From: Limnochorda sp. LNt | GTDB lineage: Bacteria > Bacillota > Limnochordia > Limnochordales > Geochordaceae | Assembly (NCBI RefSeq): GCF_035593265.1 | Contig: NZ_CP141614.1 | Span: 2,852,001 to 2,916,000 of the forward strand | Length of the DNA: 64,000 nucleotides | Direction: 5' to 3' | Shown: positions 23,383-49,500 of the stretch, piece by piece | How positions within the stretch are numbered: position 1 is the stretch's first letter | Layout of the letters: every line of letters begins with the position of its first letter | Program-made: the position numbers and the translations under genes | The notes under the pieces: generated by a model | Seen by the model: only the letters and a program-made list of their open reading frames with translations | What the model was told of the DNA's origin: nothing | The model's database searches: none

Positions 23383-24987
23383 CTACCTGGAGGGAGTGAG
23401 CACCTTTCCGTTAAGGACGGAACTGGCCATACATCGGTCAACCGCTATCTGGCCGTCGACCAGGACCCAAGTAACGCCGACAGGGAATTGGTGCGGGTTG
23501 GCAAAGGTCGCCCGGTCCGCTATCGTACCGGGATCGAAGACGACAAGGTCAGCGTAGTACCCCTCCCGAACCTCCCCACGCCGAGAAAGGCCCAGCTTCT
23601 GTGACGCTTTTCCTGTCATCTTGTGGATGGCCTCTTCAAGAGAGAGGAGCCGTCGTTCTCTTACGTAGTGTCCAAGAACCCTCGGGAACGTTCCATAGCA
23701 ACGAGGATGCGGATGGCCGCTACCAGTTGGACCTCCCGGGGTGATCGACCAACCGTCGGAACCGAACATAGACTGCGGCTTCGGGATCAGGAAATCTACG
23801 TCGTCTTGCGACATGACGAAGTTGACCATGGAAACCTGGTTATCCTCTTCGACGATAAGATCCATCATAAACTCGACAGGATCCTGGCCAACCTGGTCAG
23901 CTACCTCCTGCACGGTTAACCCTTGCATCCAACGGTTTCTCTCACTACCTACGTGGGCAATCTGAATATCCTTCCAATCAACGGGGAAGAAGTTGGGCCA
24001 GTCCGGTGTACCATGGATAACATCGTAGCGAATGCGGGGCCGCAACTCAGAATCCTTGAGGCGCGCCAGCATTGCCTGCGTGCCTCCGACATGCACCCAA
24101 GGCGGTAGTAACTGGCTCAGATTGGCACTACCGGCCGTATACGGGTAAATGTCATACGTGACGTCAAGGTTCCGGGCTGCCTCCTCAATCAGCGAATAAG
24201 TAACCCGAACTCTCCCCCAGTTCACCCGGCCGGCAGCCTTGTGGTGCGAGATCTGCACACGTACCCCTGCTTCCCTGCCAATCTGCAGCGCCTCTCGCAC
24301 TGAATCCACCACGGTCGACGCCTCGCCGCGCATGTGAGAGGCGTAGAAACCACCATAGCGCGCCACAATCTTGGATAGTTCAATCAGTTCGGAAGTGTCG
24401 CTGTACATGCCTGGAGGGTATACGAGCCCAGTAGACATGCCGAAGGCCCCCGCCTCCATGGCTTCTGTCACCAGGTGGTGCATGGTTTCGAGTTCGTCGG
24501 CTGTCGGAGGCCGTTTGTCGAAACCCATCGCGGCAGAACGAATCGATCCATGCCCGACCAGGGGCACTACGTGGGTAGCAAACCGGGCCTGACGCAGAAC
24601 CTGGAGGTAATCGCCAAAACTTTCCCACGTCCACTCGACGCCGTAGTCATAGATACCTAGCGACTTACGCACGTCCTCCTTAACTTGGTTGGTGATAGGG
24701 GCCGGTGAGAGACCGCAATTACCGATCACTTGGGTAGTGATCCCCTGCCGCACAGTACTTTCGGCCCGACCATCCGCAAGCAGCGCAAGGTCCGAATGGG
24801 TGTGCATGTCGATGAACCCCGGAGCCACGATCTGCCCGGAGGCATCCAGTCGCCGGATAGCGTTCGCGCTGCTAAGGTCCGCGACAGCGACAATCCGGTC
24901 CCCAACGATGCCCACGTCGGCGCGACGGGGAGGAGCACCCGTGCCGTCTACGACAAGGCCGTCGGCAATGATGAGGTCGAATGTCAT
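23383..24987 (-). CDS. N-acyl-D-amino-acid deacylase (D-aminoacylase family amidohydrolase)
   Basis: This zinc amidohydrolase removes the acyl group from N-acyl-D-amino acids. Visible features are the metal site H62/H64 in DMHTHSD, the conserved cysteine C91 in NCGLSPAP, downstream histidines in YASHMRGE and ISHHKAAG, and the catalytic aspartate in GSDGWS. Length (534 aa) fits the D-aminoacylase family. It is the last gene of an operon with a Dpp-type transporter, a PLP lyase, RidA and KDG kinase. N-acetyl-D-glucosaminate is itself an N-acyl-D-amino acid, so it is an attractive substrate; ordinary N-acyl-D-amino acids are the alternative. Codon and base use are less GC-rich than in flanking genes. 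Confidence 0.93.
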   Translation of the reverse strand: MTFDLIIADGLVVDGTGAPPRRADVGIVGDRIVAVADLSSANAIRRLDASGQIVAPGFIDMHTHSDLALLADGRAESTVRQGITTQVIGNCGLSPAPITNQVKEDVRKSLGIYDYGVEWTWESFGDYLQVLRQARFATHVVPLVGHGSIRSAAMGFDKRPPTADELETMHHLVTEAMEAGAFGMSTGLVYPPGMYSDTSELIELSKIVARYGGFYASHMRGEASTVVDSVREALQIGREAGVRVQISHHKAAGRVNWGRVRVTYSLIEEAARNLDVTYDIYPYTAGSANLSQLLPPWVHVGGTQAMLARLKDSELRPRIRYDVIHGTPDWPNFFPVDWKDIQIAHVGSERNRWMQGLTVQEVADQVGQDPVEFMMDLIVEEDNQVSMVNFVMSQDDVDFLIPKPQSMFGSDGWSITPGGPTGSGHPHPRCYGTFPRVLGHYVRERRLLSLEEAIHKMTGKASQKLGLSRRGEVREGYYADLVVFDPGTIADRATFANPHQFPVGVTWVLVDGQIAVDRCMASSVLNGKVLTPSR

Positions 24988-25026
24988 ATTTCCACTTGCT
25001 CCTTCCCAACGTGATTCGAGAAGAGG

Positions 25027-25896
25027 TCAACCGAGACGCCGCAACCTCGGATCCAGTAGGTCGCGCAGACCATCACCAAGCAGATTCAGCCCCAGCACCG
25101 TTAATACAATGGCGAGGCCAGGGAACCACGCGATCCAGGGGGCCACCGTCATGTATTGACGGCCACCCGCCAGGATGTTACCCCAGCTCGGCACGCCGGG
25201 GGGAACTCCCACGCCAAGAAAGCTCAGTGACGCTTCGCCCAGAACGGAAAAGGCGAACGTGAAACTGGCCTGAACAATGAGAGGTGACGCAGCGTTAGGC
25301 AGAACGTGGCGCAAGATTACGCGGGTAGAACTGGCGCCAAGCGCCTGCGCAGCCTGGACATACTCTCTCTCCCGTACGATCAGCACTGCACTGCGTACCA
25401 CCCGCGCCACTCTGGGCGTATAGACGATTCCGAGAGCGATCACGACGTTGCCCATGTTTGGCCCTAGAGCGGCCATCAGAGCTATGGCAAGCAAGAGGTC
25501 CGGCAAGGCCATGAGACCATCCATCACGCGCATGATAGGTGAATCCAAGTATCGAAAGTACCCCGCCAGAAGTCCGCAGATCGTCCCCAAAGAGGTTGAC
25601 AGGATGACTACCAGAGCCCCTACCGACAGCGACAGACGAGCGCCAAACAGCACGCGACTGAGCACGTCGCGCCCCAGTTCATCCGTTCCGAAAGGGTGAA
25701 CCGCTGAGGGAGCTTGCAGTCTGTTCAGGGGATTGATCTGTTCTGGCGGGTAAGGAGCGAGCCAGGGAGCCAGAATACCAGAAGCAGTCGCCAGCAAGGT
25801 CAGCATCAAACCCCCAGCTATTAAGCGATGACGACGCGCCCAGCGCACAGCCCTGGAAGGGTCCAAACCCGGGCTTCGAGTCGACAGCATCCCCAA
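25027..25896 (-). CDS. Dpp/Opp-type ABC transporter permease (DppC-like)
   Basis: This inner-membrane permease has an N-terminal helix, the linker NRLQAPSAVHPFGTDELGRD typical of OppC/DppC, five core helices and the EAA-type loop AAQALGASSTRVILRHVLPN. It forms a heterodimer with the upstream DppB-like permease. TTG 25896 or ATG 25890 could be the start. No ATP-binding subunits are encoded in this operon, so shared ATPases encoded elsewhere must energise it. Family-5 transporters of this kind import peptides and also oligosaccharides such as chitobiose. Confidence 0.93.
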   Translation of the reverse strand: MGMLSTRSPGLDPSRAVRWARRHRLIAGGLMLTLLATASGILAPWLAPYPPEQINPLNRLQAPSAVHPFGTDELGRDVLSRVLFGARLSLSVGALVVILSTSLGTICGLLAGYFRYLDSPIMRVMDGLMALPDLLLAIALMAALGPNMGNVVIALGIVYTPRVARVVRSAVLIVREREYVQAAQALGASSTRVILRHVLPNAASPLIVQASFTFAFSVLGEASLSFLGVGVPPGVPSWGNILAGGRQYMTVAPWIAWFPGLAIVLTVLGLNLLGDGLRDLLDPRLRRLG

Positions 25897-25921
25897 CGGT
25901 TTACCGCCCTCTCGGCGCGTC

Positions 25922-26863
25922 TCAGTACTTAATGCGGGGGTCTACGTACACGTACACAAGGTCTACTAGCAAGTTTACCAACACGTAAATCGCGGCGACG
26001 AGCATGATGGTGGCCTGGATCACGGGGTAATCGCGTCGAAGTACAGACGAGACCACAAGTCGCCCGATCCCGGGGATACCAAACACCGTTTCGGTTACCA
26101 CCGCCCCACCCATGAGCCCTGCGAAAGTTAGCGCAACCACGGTTATAATGGGGACCAGCGCGTTTCGCAGAGCATGTTTGAAGATTACGCGCATCATCGC
26201 TAGACCTTTGGCGCGTGCCACTCGCACGTAATCTTCCCGCAGCACATCAAGCATGGCGGAACGAGTAATGCGCGAAATAAGGGCCGAGTTTGGGAACCCG
26301 AGGGCGATTGACGGCAGAACAAAATAGCGAAGGCTGTCGAGGACACCCGAGCGGAGAGGCAGATAGCCTGCCGCAGGTAACCATCCCAGGCCCACCGCGA
26401 CATACAGGATCAGAGTGAGCCCCAGCCAGAACGATGGGACGGAGGCGCCTAGTAGAGCCATCCCCATCACAAGCTGGTCAACTACAGTGCCTCTTCGAAG
26501 TGCAGCGACTACACCAGCCGGCAGTCCAATCATAATGGCTACTAGTAACGCCATTCCTGCGAGGAGCAGGGTCGGTTCTGCGCGTTCCAAGAGGATGTCC
26601 GACACGGGTCTCTGCGCGAAATGGGAGATCCCCAGGTCTCCTCGTATCATCCTACTAAACCAGGCCACAAACTGTACCATGAGGGGACGATCGAGCGCCA
26701 GCTGCTGTCGCAAACGCTGCACGTCTTCCACCGTGGCGTTAGGTCCGAGCATGACGCTGGCCGGGTCTCCTGGGGCCAGATGAATGAGTAGAAAGGCTAC
26801 GACTGCGACTACGAGCAGCACTACTATCAGCGATAACAGCCGGCGCCCGATGTATTGCAACAA
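25922..26863 (-). CDS. Dpp/Opp-type ABC transporter permease (DppB-like)
   Basis: Six membrane segments follow a short N-terminus (MLQYIGRRLLSLIVVLLVVA), with the family hallmarks FLLIHLAPGDPASVMLG near residue 30 and the EAA loop YVRVARAKGLAMMRVIFKHA. The TTG start at 26863 has GAGGGG about 10 bases upstream. It lies between the binding protein and the DppC-like permease with short gaps, in one transcription unit. Confidence 0.93.
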   Translation of the reverse strand: MLQYIGRRLLSLIVVLLVVAVVAFLLIHLAPGDPASVMLGPNATVEDVQRLRQQLALDRPLMVQFVAWFSRMIRGDLGISHFAQRPVSDILLERAEPTLLLAGMALLVAIMIGLPAGVVAALRRGTVVDQLVMGMALLGASVPSFWLGLTLILYVAVGLGWLPAAGYLPLRSGVLDSLRYFVLPSIALGFPNSALISRITRSAMLDVLREDYVRVARAKGLAMMRVIFKHALRNALVPIITVVALTFAGLMGGAVVTETVFGIPGIGRLVVSSVLRRDYPVIQATIMLVAAIYVLVNLLVDLVYVYVDPRIKY

Positions 26864-26898
26864 GACCTATCGTCCCCTCATATACGACAATTACGACT

Positions 26899-28464
26899 TC
26901 ACCGCTGGAGCCCAACATTCCAGAAGTTGGGCCACGGCGACGCCCACATGTTCACGAGGCGGGCCGTACCGATGTCGAACAGCACCTCCTCGCCCACCCG
27001 GATTGCCGGCACCTCTTCGTAAATGAGCTCCTGGAGCTGGTTCCAAAGTTCGAGTCGACGTGCGTGATCCATCTCCGAGTTGAAGGCCTGCAGCAGACGG
27101 TTCTTCTCGGGGCTATCCCACCAGCCCGGATACTCGCTGCCAAAGATGGTGATTAGCGAAGGATCGGGCACGAAGGCATGGCCCGTTACGAACGCGTCAT
27201 AGGCGTCGGGTTTGCTTCGGCGGTCGAGCAGTGTGGCCCAGTCATATATCTGCAGGTCAACGTTGAACCCCGCCTGTTGCCACTGGGCGGCCACCACCGT
27301 AGCTATCTTGTAGATGTAGTCATATTCCGTAGTGGCGATCAGGCGAATCGGTTCGCCGCGGTAGCCTGCCCTCCCCATCAGTTCTCGAGCGAGCGCTCTG
27401 TTCTTCTGGTTGTAGTAGTGCGCTCCCGCCTTAGAATACCAGGGGGTGCCCGGAGGATAATACGACGGCTCGAGCCGATAAAACGTCGGCAACCCATAGG
27501 CCGCTGCAAGAATTGGCTGCATATCGAGGGCGGCCTGAGCCGCTTGCCGGAGTGTTTGGTTTGCCATCAAGCCTTGCTTCTTGTTGAAGATTACCCATCC
27601 CCACTGGCCTGGTTGAATAGTGAAGGCCTTAACGTTAGGATTCCGCTGGACCTCTGGATAGCTTTCCTTGGTAATCTGAATAGCGTAATCATAGTCACCA
27701 GTCAGAATGCCTGCAAGCCGGCTTCCGGCCTCGGGCACCGGATAGAACTCTATTGCGTCGAGGTAACCGACCTTACTTCCCGCAAACCCGCTCGGCTCAT
27801 CTGATCGAGCCGCATACTGCTCAAACCGTACGAGGCGGATGCGGTAGTCGCGCCGCCACTCCTCAAACCGATAAGGGCCGGTGCCGACGTACTCCGATAT
27901 TGGCTGGTCGCCGAAACGCTCGACAACCGACTTAGGATAGATGGCCGCTGCCGTATTTTGGAAAGCGAGGAAGGCAAGGAGCGGGGCGAACGGCTGTCGG
28001 AGATGAAGCACGACCGTATACGGACCCTGGGCTTCCACTCGGTCGATGTACTGAAACGCAATGCGGCCTCGGCTTGCCACCCGACCCCACCGACTCAAAG
28101 AGGCCACAACGTCCTCAGATGTCATTTCCTTGCCGTTATGAAATCGAACGCCCCGTCGCAACTGGATGGTATATGTTCGTCCGTCCGGGCTGATCTGGTA
28201 AGACTCTGCCAGCATCGGGCGAATCTCGTACTTCGCGTCGAACGCGAAGAGCTGCTCGAAGATGTGCTGCGCAATCATGCTAACCAAGTCAGAAGGTACC
28301 ATTTGGATATCCAGATTCGGAGGTTCGCCTATGGTTGCCACCCTCAGAGTGCCGCCGGAGGGAATCTCGGCGGCAGCTTGCGCTTGCGCAACCATAGCGG
28401 TTAGGCTTGCCGTCAGGACGAGAATCGCCACGATGGTACCTCGACACACGGGATGACAGGTCAT
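26899..28464 (-). CDS. Family-5 extracellular solute-binding protein
   Basis: This is the secreted receptor of the ABC importer. A signal peptide (residues 1-30, TIVAILVLTASLTAMVAQAQ) is followed by the SBP_bac_5 start GGTLRVATIGEPPNLDIQ. Later motifs include YTIQLRRGVRFHNGKEMTSE and VVLHLRQPFAPLLAFLAF, both diagnostic of the family. There is no lipobox cysteine, so it may stay anchored by an uncleaved helix or be periplasmic if the cell has an outer membrane. Family-5 receptors bind peptides, nickel, opines and chitin oligosaccharides; the operon context favours a chitin-derived amino-sugar acid or N-acyl-D-amino acid. Confidence 0.93.
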   Translation of the reverse strand: MTCHPVCRGTIVAILVLTASLTAMVAQAQAAAEIPSGGTLRVATIGEPPNLDIQMVPSDLVSMIAQHIFEQLFAFDAKYEIRPMLAESYQISPDGRTYTIQLRRGVRFHNGKEMTSEDVVASLSRWGRVASRGRIAFQYIDRVEAQGPYTVVLHLRQPFAPLLAFLAFQNTAAAIYPKSVVERFGDQPISEYVGTGPYRFEEWRRDYRIRLVRFEQYAARSDEPSGFAGSKVGYLDAIEFYPVPEAGSRLAGILTGDYDYAIQITKESYPEVQRNPNVKAFTIQPGQWGWVIFNKKQGLMANQTLRQAAQAALDMQPILAAAYGLPTFYRLEPSYYPPGTPWYSKAGAHYYNQKNRALARELMGRAGYRGEPIRLIATTEYDYIYKIATVVAAQWQQAGFNVDLQIYDWATLLDRRSKPDAYDAFVTGHAFVPDPSLITIFGSEYPGWWDSPEKNRLLQAFNSEMDHARRLELWNQLQELIYEEVPAIRVGEEVLFDIGTARLVNMWASPWPNFWNVGLQR

Positions 28465-28518
28465 TCTCTCGAGCCCTCCTTTGCTACAAGCGGTAGTCCA
28501 TATCCCCGTAGCACTACA

Positions 28519-29643
28519 CTACAACCTTGCGGCCACCCCCAAGAGCCTGTCTACCACCAGCTCGGCCTCACCCTCCTCTAAAGTCATGGGATTGATGTAA
28601 ACCCCGTCCTCGCCTTCGAGCGTCACAGCGATGGCAGGATCTCCAGCCAGAAGCGCATCTCGCACTGCTGCTGCCCAGCCCAGGGCACCCGGTTTACGTA
28701 CTAGTGCACGAGGGATCGGTTGCCCGGCCTCGTTGGGGAAGGTCCGAATGGCCTGCAGTCCGAGGCCTCCCGCCTCAACACGCTCAATGACTAGGCGTAC
28801 CTGGCGCTCACACCACTGAAGTCGAGCGGCATGATCCATCTTTACGTAACGCTCGACAGCAGCCATTAGGCCAGCTAGCTCTTCGCGGCCTACTTTCAAC
28901 ATTCGCCCGATGCCATAGGTCGGAAATCCTGTTTCGGCTATCGCTTCTACAAACTGTCTGCGCCCCAGCACCAGTCCCGTAGATTGTGGCCCTCGCAGGT
29001 CCTTGCCACCGCTGAAAACCGCCGCATCCGCCCCCGCCTGCGTCAGCGACCAGAGGTTCTCTACCGGCGGAAGCTGCGCTGCGGCATCTACGACGACAGG
29101 CACTCGGTGGCGGCGGGCAACCTCAATCACCGCTTTCAAGGGCAACGCACCAGGAGCAGTCCACCCCGACATGGTGTAGAAGATAGCCACCGTTCGTTGG
29201 GTGATGGACGCCTCCAGTTCATCCACGGTCGGCGGGTCGATAGTGTTTGGGTAGCCCACCTCAACGAGGCGAACGCCCAATTGTCGCACAGCCCAGTCGT
29301 ACGGGTTTCGGTGTGCCCTGTAAACCACGACCTCAGAGTTAGCAACTTCTTCAGACTTGAGCCATCGGAAGGGCTTTCCAAAGCGTAGCGATACAGCAGC
29401 AGCCGCCGCAAGATAGAGCCCCGCGGCGCACCCGCACGTGACGTATGCGCCTTCGTTCCGAGTGAGCTCGGCGATACGGGCGTGTACCCGGGCCTGGAAG
29501 TCCTGGATGCGAGTAAAGGAGGAAGCCGCCGATACCATGGCCTCAATGACCTCGCGCGGCATCCGTGACCCACCAAATACAGTATAGGTCCCGGCCGCGT
29601 TGACAAGCCGCGGCATCCCGAGATCCGCGTAGATGTCTCGCAA
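28519..29643 (-). CDS. SelA-like PLP-dependent ammonia-lyase (D-glucosaminate/D-amino acid type)
   Basis: This fold-type I PLP enzyme is related to selenocysteine synthase SelA and D-glucosaminate-6-phosphate ammonia-lyase DgaE. The Schiff-base lysine is K214 in FSGGKDLRGPQSTG, the pyridine-contacting aspartate is D186 in VVVDAAAQLPP, and CGCAAGLYLAAAAAV matches the N-terminal phosphate-cup region. TTG 29643 has GGAGG 8 bases upstream. With RidA next door the likely chemistry is alpha,beta-elimination of ammonia or water from a D-amino acid, giving an enamine/imine that becomes a 2-keto acid. Acting on D-glucosaminate it would give 2-keto-3-deoxygluconate, the substrate of the upstream kinase. 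Confidence 0.85.
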   Translation of the reverse strand: MRDIYADLGMPRLVNAAGTYTVFGGSRMPREVIEAMVSAASSFTRIQDFQARVHARIAELTRNEGAYVTCGCAAGLYLAAAAAVSLRFGKPFRWLKSEEVANSEVVVYRAHRNPYDWAVRQLGVRLVEVGYPNTIDPPTVDELEASITQRTVAIFYTMSGWTAPGALPLKAVIEVARRHRVPVVVDAAAQLPPVENLWSLTQAGADAAVFSGGKDLRGPQSTGLVLGRRQFVEAIAETGFPTYGIGRMLKVGREELAGLMAAVERYVKMDHAARLQWCERQVRLVIERVEAGGLGLQAIRTFPNEAGQPIPRALVRKPGALGWAAAVRDALLAGDPAIAVTLEGEDGVYINPMTLEEGEAELVVDRLLGVAARL

Positions 29644-46705: not shown

Positions 46706-47032
46706 ATGGGTCTGCAAGCGGTGAGCAACTCGGTCCGCCTGCGTTGCGGCGGGCGGGCCCGTGGCTGGTCCGAACGGGCCGAGACCCAACTGGTGCGCGC
46801 CATCCTCCAGGGCCGCCACCGGCCCGGCACCTGGCTGCCACCCGAGCGCGAGCTGGCCGCTCTCCTCGGCGTCTCCCGGCCGGCCCTACGTGAGGCCCTG
46901 CAGCGTCTGGCCCTGGACGGCTGGATCACCCTGCGACGCGGGCAGCCCGCCGTCGTCATCGAGCTTTGGAGGGTGTCATGCGAGGGTGAGACGCCATGCG
47001 ACGATGGAACGGCTGGGGCGATGAGCGGGTGA
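46706..47032 (+). CDS. FadR/GntR DNA-binding domain without the acyl-CoA domain
   Basis: The winged-helix domain is strikingly like FadR: RAILQGRHRPGTWLPPEREL then AALLGVSRPALREALQRLAL and DGWITLRRGQPAVVIELWRV. E. coli FadR reads similarly, ending NNFWETS. Normal FadR proteins have a further ~160-residue ligand-binding domain; here the frame ends about 12 residues after the wing (stop 47030-47032), inside the start of the next gene. It is thus either a truncated gene or a minimal ligand-blind repressor. The FadR-like operator upstream suggests that binding specificity is maintained. Confidence 0.75.
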   Translation: MGLQAVSNSVRLRCGGRARGWSERAETQLVRAILQGRHRPGTWLPPERELAALLGVSRPALREALQRLALDGWITLRRGQPAVVIELWRVSCEGETPCDDGTAGAMSG

Positions 47033-49500
47033 CCTATCCCGTGCCGCCGGGGGCCCGCCGCCTGCTCGGGGCGGCGGTGGGGCCCGGCGAGCGGCCCCGT
47101 GACGCGACCCTACCCGAGGTGGTGGCCCGAGTCCCGCCCTCCCGCCTGCCCCCTCATCCCCTGGTGAGCGTCGACGCCGAGCAGCGGGTGCGCCATGCCC
47201 TGGGACAGAGCCTGCCCGACTGGATCGCCGCGCGCAGCGGGCGCATCCCGGCCTTCCCCGATGGGGTCGCCTACCCCGCCACGCCCGAGGAGGTGCTTGA
47301 GCTGCTGCGCTTCGCAGCCGCCAGCGGCGCCCGGCTCATCCCCTACGGCGGTGGCACCAGCGTGGTGGGGCACCTGACGGTGCCGCCCGGCGAGGCCCCG
47401 GTGCTCAGCGTCGATCTGGACCGCCTCAGCCGCCTGATTCGCCTCGACGAGCGAAGCGCCCTGGCCACCTTCGGGGCGGGGGTGAGGGGGCCCGAGCTGG
47501 AGGCGTCCCTGCGGGCCCGGGGCTGGACGCTGGGCCACTACCCCCAATCGTTCGAGTACTCGACCCTGGGGGGCTGGGTGGCCACCCGCTCGGCCGGGCA
47601 GCAGTCCATCTGGTACGGGCGTATCGAGGACCTCTTCGCCGGCGGCGTGCTGGAGGCCCCCGCCGGCACGGTGACGCTGCCGCCGTGGCCGGCCTCCGCG
47701 GCCGGGCCGGACCTGCGCCACCTGGTGCTGGGCTCGGAGGGGCGCCTCGGCATCCTGACCGAGGTGACGGTGCGGGTGCGGCGGCTCCCCGAGGCCGAGG
47801 CGTTCGCGGCGGTCTTCTTCCCGGCCTTCGAGCCGGGCCTCGAGGCGATGCGGGCGCTGGCGCAGGCGGAGGTGGGGCTCTCGATGGTGCGCCTGAGCAC
47901 CCCCGGGGAGACCGCCACCACCCTGGCCATGGCCGGCCACGAACGGGCGTTGCGCCTGCTGGAGCGGTGGGTCGCCCTCCGGGGAGCCGGACCCGACAAG
48001 TGCCTGCTCATCCTGGGCGCCACGGGCTGGCGCTCGCACGTCCGCCGGGCGCTGGCCCGGGCCCTGGCCATCTGCGCCGACCACCGGGGCGTCTACGCCG
48101 GGCGCACCTTCGGGCGGGAGTGGGTGCGCCAGCGTTTCCGAGCCCCCTACCTGCGCAACACCCTTTGGGAGATGGGCTACGCCGTCGACACCCTGGAGAC
48201 CGCAGGCACCTGGGTGCAGGTGCCGGGCCTGGTGACCGCCGTCGAGCGGGCCCTGCAGGGCGCCCTGGAGGCCGAGGGCGAGCGCGTCTACGTCTTCACC
48301 CACCTCTCCCACGTCTATCGCCAGGGCTCCAACGTCTACACCACCTACCTCTTCCGGCTGGCCCCGGACCCCGAGGTCAACCTGCGACGGTGGCGGCGTC
48401 TCAAGGAGGCGGCCAGCCGCGCCATCGTGGCCGCGGGCGGCACCGTCAGCCACCAGCACGGGGAGGTGACCGGCCTCCTGCAGCGCCGCAGCGGCGCGGT
48501 GGAGGGGGTGGCGGTGCGAGACCGGGTGAGCGGCCGCACCGCCGAGGTGCGCGCCCGGGTGGTGATCAACGCCGCGGGCGCCTGGGCGGACGCCCTGCGG
48601 GGCCAGGTGGGCCGCCCGCCGCGGCTGCGGCAGCTGCGCGGCAGCCACCTGCTCTTCCCGGGCTGGCGAGTGCCTTTGGCCACGGGCCTCAACCTGTTCC
48701 ATCCACGAGACGGCCGCCCCCTTTACGTGCTGCCGTGGGAGGGCATGACGCTGGTGGGCACGACCGACGTCGACCACGGCGACGGCCTCGACGACGAGCC
48801 CCGCATCCATCCCGACGAAGGAGCGTACCTGCTGGAGGCGGTGCAGCATCTCTTCCCGGCGCTGGACCTTGAGGCCCGAGACGTGGTGGCCACCTTCGCC
48901 GGCGTGCGGCCCGTGGTCGGCTCCGGCAAGGCCGATCCCTCCCGGGAGCCCCGGGACTGGGCCATCTGGGACGAGGGGCTGGTCACCGTGACGGGCGGCA
49001 AGCTCACCACCTTCGGAGCCATGGCGCGGGCGGCCATGGCCGCGGCCCGCCGGCGCCTGCCCGATGCGCCGGATAAGCGGCCGACCGAGGAGTCGGGCAG
49101 CCACCGAGGCGAGCCGGCCCGCGACGCGGCCGAGGCCCTGGCGTCGCTCGACGAGACCCTGCGCCGGCGCCTGCTGGGCCGCTACGGTCACCGGACCGTG
49201 GATCTGGTGCGCCGGGCCCGCCCCGGCGAGCTGGAGCTCGTCCCCGGCACGACCGTCACGTGGGCGGAGCTGCGCTGGGCCATCGAGGAGGAGTCTGTCG
49301 TGCACCTCGACGACCTGCTCCTGCGGCGGGTGCGGCTCGGGCTGCAGCTCCCTCAGGGCGGGGCGGCCATGCTGCCCCGGCTGCGTCCGCTGGCACAGGA
49401 GAGCCTGGGCTGGGACGACGCGCGTTGGGAGGCTGAGGCGTCTCGCTACCGGCAGCTCTGGGCTTGGGCATGCGGCCCAGAGAATCTGGCAGCCGGGTAG
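46996..49500 (+). CDS. In-frame fusion of alkyl-DHAP-synthase-like FAD oxidase with the C-terminal half of GlpD
   Basis: Residues 1-~489 are an alkyldihydroxyacetonephosphate synthase-like flavoprotein: N-terminal RRWNGWG as in AGPS, FAD_binding_4 motif PYGGGTSVVGHL (about 114-125), STLGGWVATRSAGQ and YGRIEDLF, ending at GTVSHQHG, part of the AGPS active-site histidine motif. From ~490 the sequence becomes glycerol-3-phosphate dehydrogenase: EVTGLLQRRSGAVEGVAVRD, VVINAAGAWAD, GTTDVDHGD, FAGVRPVV, TVTGGKLTTFG and a DAO_C-type domain. The AGPS tail and GlpD's N-terminal GxGxxG FAD fold are both missing. ATG 46996 is kept because RRWNGWG is conserved. Activity of the chimera is unknown. Confidence 0.85.
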   Translation: MRRWNGWGDERVTYPVPPGARRLLGAAVGPGERPRDATLPEVVARVPPSRLPPHPLVSVDAEQRVRHALGQSLPDWIAARSGRIPAFPDGVAYPATPEEVLELLRFAAASGARLIPYGGGTSVVGHLTVPPGEAPVLSVDLDRLSRLIRLDERSALATFGAGVRGPELEASLRARGWTLGHYPQSFEYSTLGGWVATRSAGQQSIWYGRIEDLFAGGVLEAPAGTVTLPPWPASAAGPDLRHLVLGSEGRLGILTEVTVRVRRLPEAEAFAAVFFPAFEPGLEAMRALAQAEVGLSMVRLSTPGETATTLAMAGHERALRLLERWVALRGAGPDKCLLILGATGWRSHVRRALARALAICADHRGVYAGRTFGREWVRQRFRAPYLRNTLWEMGYAVDTLETAGTWVQVPGLVTAVERALQGALEAEGERVYVFTHLSHVYRQGSNVYTTYLFRLAPDPEVNLRRWRRLKEAASRAIVAAGGTVSHQHGEVTGLLQRRSGAVEGVAVRDRVSGRTAEVRARVVINAAGAWADALRGQVGRPPRLRQLRGSHLLFPGWRVPLATGLNLFHPRDGRPLYVLPWEGMTLVGTTDVDHGDGLDDEPRIHPDEGAYLLEAVQHLFPALDLEARDVVATFAGVRPVVGSGKADPSREPRDWAIWDEGLVTVTGGKLTTFGAMARAAMAAARRRLPDAPDKRPTEESGSHRGEPARDAAEALASLDETLRRRLLGRYGHRTVDLVRRARPGELELVPGTTVTWAELRWAIEEESVVHLDDLLLRRVRLGLQLPQGGAAMLPRLRPLAQESLGWDDARWEAEASRYRQLWAWACGPENLAAG

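Follow-up and report, generated by a model that had tools for sequence, protein, structure and literature searches.

The locus lies in the 64,000-nucleotide stretch C1:2852001-2916000 (the window) of the genome of Limnochorda sp. LNt, which is a single 3,019,339-base contig (C1). An open reading frame of 834 codons at window positions 46996-49500 (plus strand) runs from ATG to TAG without an internal stop or frameshift over 2.5 kb. The first part of the putative peptide chain is similar to alkyl-DHAP synthase (AGPS) and the remainder to glycerol-3-phosphate dehydrogenase (GlpD). GC3 over the open reading frame is 0.93, like that of the adjoining genes. The features are as follows.

46709-47032, plus strand, truncated FadR-like gntR gene (homology at 46769-46972), whose frame overlaps the start of the chimera
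46996-48462, plus strand, AGPS-derived part, residues 1-489, MRRWNGWGD to SHQHG
48462-48463, plus strand, deletion junction between SHQHG and EVTGLL (position approximate), with about 692 bp of the paralogue missing
48463-49497, plus strand, GlpD-derived part, residues 490-834
49129-49425, plus strand, DAO_C domain (Pfam), kept

Pfam places FAD_binding_4 (PF01565, PCMH-type) at residues 88-217 with 100 bits and a truncated FAD-oxidase_C domain (profile positions 1-209 of 248) at residues 264-489. The SH(H/Q)HG motif is present at S485-G489 and aligns with SHHHG of the AGPS structure 2UUU, the PDB sequence match for residues 50-489 (1.1e-65, 226 bits). Beyond this point residues 496-791 correspond to positions 181-490 of the NCBIfam GlpD model PRK12266, the PDB sequence match for residues 480-816 is the G3P oxidase/dehydrogenase (2RGH/3DA1), and DAO_C (PF16901) is found at residues 712-810 with 58.5 bits, above cut-off. 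A Pfam scan of both proteins shows no match to DAO in the chimera, whereas the intact GlpD paralogue scores 182 bits. The GlpD-derived portion corresponds to the C-terminal two thirds of a GlpD-like protein. The preliminary description had read this open reading frame as AGPS-like up to SHQHG (residue 489) and as GlpD in frame from there on, and the open reading frame, Pfam, PRK12266 and PDB matches all agree with that reading and with the coordinates it gave.

Each half lacks a segment that its intact counterparts carry. The AGPS part is without the conserved tail of about 40-46 amino acids (DPxGIMNPGKL) and stops at residue 544 of the 584 in 2UUU. In contrast, the intact AGPS paralogue of the same genome has a complete FAD-oxidase_C profile (1-248), and its alignment to 2UUU runs through the last residue; among the best 80 of 545 relatives, 78 AGPS proteins cover the family profile to its last position. 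Loss of activity is predicted for the AGPS half, which without its C-terminal tail is likely inactive or severely impaired. In a model alignment the GlpD part corresponds to positions 171-496 of E. coli GlpD (2QCU) and to 192-544 of 3DA1, and the N-terminal FAD-binding segment (Rossmann, GGGITGAG) is absent. The dinucleotide-binding motif thus falls in the missing part and, judging from the known fold, the GlpD half, having no GxGxxG segment, is probably unable to bind FAD in the manner of GlpD. The absence of both the AGPS tail and the FAD-binding N-terminus of GlpD, stated in the preliminary description, is borne out by Pfam, by the 2UUU and 2QCU alignments and by comparison with the paralogue.

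A model of the whole chimera without an alignment is uninformative (pLDDT 39). The GlpD part was modelled singly because a joint AGPS and GlpD alignment put GlpD rows on the AGPS part. Modelled alone it gives a pLDDT of 88, a value that comes from an alignment of intact GlpD proteins and does not mean that the isolated part folds. Against 2QCU the model shows a VIA-align Z of 19.5 and 3.6 A over 300 residues.

An intact paralogous operon is found in the same genome at about C1:2125200-2130822, minus strand (locus L031), with the order FadR-like gntR, agps, glpD and FGGY kinase. Its AGPS-like (535 aa) and GlpD-like (541 aa) products are both complete, and its regulator displays both GntR and FadR_C in Pfam. 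The preliminary description had proposed a search for separate full-length agps and glpD genes elsewhere in the genome, and these are the genes concerned. The AGPS and GlpD parts of the chimera show 77% and 69% protein identity to these own-genome paralogues, and the DNA identity between the two operon copies is about 76%. Window positions 48340-48481 match C1:2128541-2128682 and positions 48486-48612 match C1:2127718-2127844, both on the minus strand. The window copy is therefore short of about 692 bp, which in the paralogue cover the 46 aa tail of AGPS with its stop codon and the N-terminal 185 aa of GlpD. The agps and glpD genes of the intact copy are in different frames. The missing pieces are not relocated within the window, and elsewhere in the genome the GlpD N-terminal segment is found only in the paralogue and in a canonical glpD.

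The gntR gene upstream of the chimera is also incomplete. The winged HTH is kept and Pfam finds GntR alone; the FadR_C/FCD effector domain is gone. Similarity to the intact regulator extends no further than residue 71 of its 235 (window position 46972), and from here to the agps start the window copy has a net deficit of about 559 bp relative to the paralogue. Thus at least two distinct sites of the window operon copy have suffered sequence loss. No FGGY kinase gene is present in the window, the gene that follows the chimera being an MFS transporter; the kinase either was lost from this copy or was never there.

A scan of 84,980 species genomes with the AGPS part gave 545 relatives (Chloroflexota, Bacillota, Pseudomonadota, Myxococcota, Acidobacteriota and others), the best 80 of which were analysed. 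At 70 or more of these 80 loci GlpD is encoded immediately downstream of AGPS, and at none of the 80 do the two form a single open reading frame. Of the 80, 35 have a FadR-like gntR upstream and 40 have an FGGY kinase downstream, counts that include loci cut by contig ends. No second AGPS-GlpD fusion was found in the 72 other genomes of the class (a set of 73, own genome included) or in the 397 others of the phylum sample (398, likewise). Both the neighbouring intact genes of the paralogous operon and these adjacent, unfused pairs support the suggestion that operon neighbours were joined by an in-frame deletion. The same junction, which had been proposed as something to seek in related genomes, occurs in none of the 80 loci and in no other genome of the class and phylum sets searched.

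Four genomes gave an apparent full-length fusion, i.e. open frames of 955 (G001), 1081 (G226), 1149 (G221) and 1079 aa (G168). In the DNA these are separate genes, with stops between agps and glpD of TGA, TAA, TAA followed by TGA, and TAA, respectively. Recoding at the inter-gene stop is ruled out, as the stop codons differ among the genomes. In three of these genomes (G226, G168 and G001; loci L048, L050 and L033) agps and glpD share a frame with a single TAA or TGA between them. Loss of that one stop could give a full-length fusion at loci of this type; none was found. Separately, a metagenome-assembled genome (G008, loci L036 and L035) shows a G-rich, low-quality-looking glpD start at contig edges with a disrupted FAD motif, which is likely a sequencing error.

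The operon of FadR-like GntR, AGPS-like, GlpD-like and FGGY kinase genes (L031 and L053-L132) is conserved over several phyla and apparently unstudied. A search of the open-access literature found no paper on an AGPS-GlpD fusion or on this operon. The gene set and the acyl-CoA-type regulator suggest a role in alkylglycerol or ether-lipid metabolism.

In two trees, of the AGPS and GlpD parts, the window copy groups with its own-genome paralogue (support 0.97 and 0.99). It is thus a lineage-specific duplicate or comes from a very close relative. The protein branch of the window copy is 2 to 2.7 times as long as that of its sister, 0.22 vs 0.11 for the AGPS part and 0.39 vs 0.14 for the GlpD part. 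Relative-rate tests with L053 as outgroup show the window copy to be faster (p = 0.009 and 0.004); with G001 as outgroup the result is significant in the GlpD part only. At codon positions 1 and 2 the window copy also carries a relative excess of changes (p = 0.003 and 0.014). The AGPS part keeps 127 of 129 columns conserved at 95% or more, the two changes being L to V and I to V, and the GlpD part keeps all 41 highly conserved residues. Neutrality (dN/dS = 1) along the entire window branch costs about 17 log-likelihood units in each half and is rejected. A codon branch model resolves no dN/dS difference between the two copies, a comparison of low power in which synonymous sites are probably saturated. 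With the frame open, the conserved residues intact and dN/dS = 1 rejected, any neutral decay is recent. Either the deletions would be recent or the remnant would still be constrained. Most simply, selection would have relaxed once the operon had been duplicated, and the deletions would have followed recently; continued selection on the chimera would leave a similar pattern.

We consider the chimera to be a recent and redundant remnant of a duplicated operon that is heading for loss, with a probability of roughly three in four (0.77). It is most likely non-working, since an intact copy is present elsewhere in the genome. The operon is present twice in this genome, intact in one place and shortened in the other, which points to duplication. 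One deletion in the second copy would have taken the ligand-binding domain of the regulator. The other, of about 692 bp, would account for the loss of the AGPS tail with its stop codon and of GlpD residues 1-185, the remaining glpD being left in frame presumably by luck (a one-in-three chance). The locus would now be redundant and in the course of being lost. The quicker protein evolution of the window copy favours this reading, while the unbroken frame, the intact conserved residues and the rejection of dN/dS = 1 speak against it. An intact paralogue together with disabling deletions in the other copy, as found here, is what characterizes a degenerate duplicate. The significance given to the locus in the preliminary description, that of a chimeric flavoenzyme, gains no support from the regulator deletion, the lack of a kinase gene, the intact paralogue and a junction seen in no relative.

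An unlikely alternative is that the cell holds an intact second operon from which the assembly dropped about 0.56 kb and about 0.69 kb. The retained parts are nearly undecayed, as expected of intact genes, and there are two sizeable gaps within one 3-kb stretch. However, the genome is one 3.02-Mb contig, and about 20 window genes scanned as a control of assembly quality show no comparable domain loss, although a few have partial Pfam coverage, e.g. an M14 peptidase. Moreover, at about 76% DNA identity the two copies are too unlike for an assembler to confuse or merge, and the kinase gene is absent as well. The assembly of Geochorda subterranea LN-T, one of three closed Limnochordales isolate genomes, was made with Flye on Nanopore reads with Illumina polishing (PMC11456536). 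If the present genome is that of Geochorda subterranea LN-T, which is probable, it is unlikely that 0.56 and 0.69 kb dropped out unnoticed with such data.

It is improbable that the chimera is a working new enzyme or scaffold under selection, in which the AGPS half would keep FAD and the GlpD half would stand in for the missing tail or provide a substrate or membrane domain. The open frame, the retention of nearly all conserved residues in both halves, a dN/dS far below 1 over the branch and the pLDDT of the GlpD part alone are consistent with such a protein. But the constraint may predate the deletion, and the pLDDT rests on an alignment of intact GlpD and does not imply folding of the isolated part. 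In addition, the GlpD part is without its Rossmann segment, the AGPS part is without a tail found in all but two of the best 80 relatives, the regulator is broken too while an intact operon is present, and the fusion occurs in no relative searched. A newborn in-frame flavoprotein, expressed and selected, with the GlpD-derived domain replacing the C-terminal tail of AGPS, is likewise improbable, and would mean that a new enzyme arose by a deletion between neighbouring operon genes and is seen before it has diverged.

The locus clearly exemplifies how a deletion can join two operon neighbours in frame, and the ancestral layout survives unbroken in the same genome for comparison. It offers a natural test of whether joins in the middle of domains ever yield protein. 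As a remnant, the chimera accounts for an odd annotation and adds no new enzyme. The intact operon, with its FadR-like regulator, AGPS, GlpD and FGGY kinase in several phyla, is the more interesting object.

Two further observations concern the window and the genome at large. Window positions 23383-29643 show a lower G+C (down to 0.586 vs about 0.70) and a low GC3 and encode an amidohydrolase, an oligopeptide-type ABC transporter and an aminotransferase/SelA-like protein; by its composition this block was possibly acquired horizontally. The host genome is without RuBisCO, in contrast to its family neighbours G002 and G003.

Compared with known systems, the chimera shares with AGPS (2UUU of Dictyostelium, 4BBY of guinea pig) the N-terminal WNGWGD motif, the FAD_binding_4 and FAD-oxidase_C domains and the SH(Q/H)HG motif of the catalytic region. 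The last 40 residues of 2UUU (545-584, ending in NPRKL) have no counterpart in the chimera, where the AGPS homology ends at SHQHG. With GlpD and alpha-glycerophosphate oxidase (2QCU, 3DA1, 2RGH) it shares the substrate-domain and DAO_C parts and the GGKLTT motif, but it has no equivalent of GlpD residues 1-170, including the dinucleotide-binding motif, and the GlpD portion sits fused behind AGPS. The intact gntR(FadR-like)-agps-glpD-FGGY operon of its own genome and of Chloroflexota, Bacillota, Pseudomonadota and others has the same gene order as the window copy. Unlike the window copy, that operon consists of separate full-length genes with a whole regulator and the kinase present.
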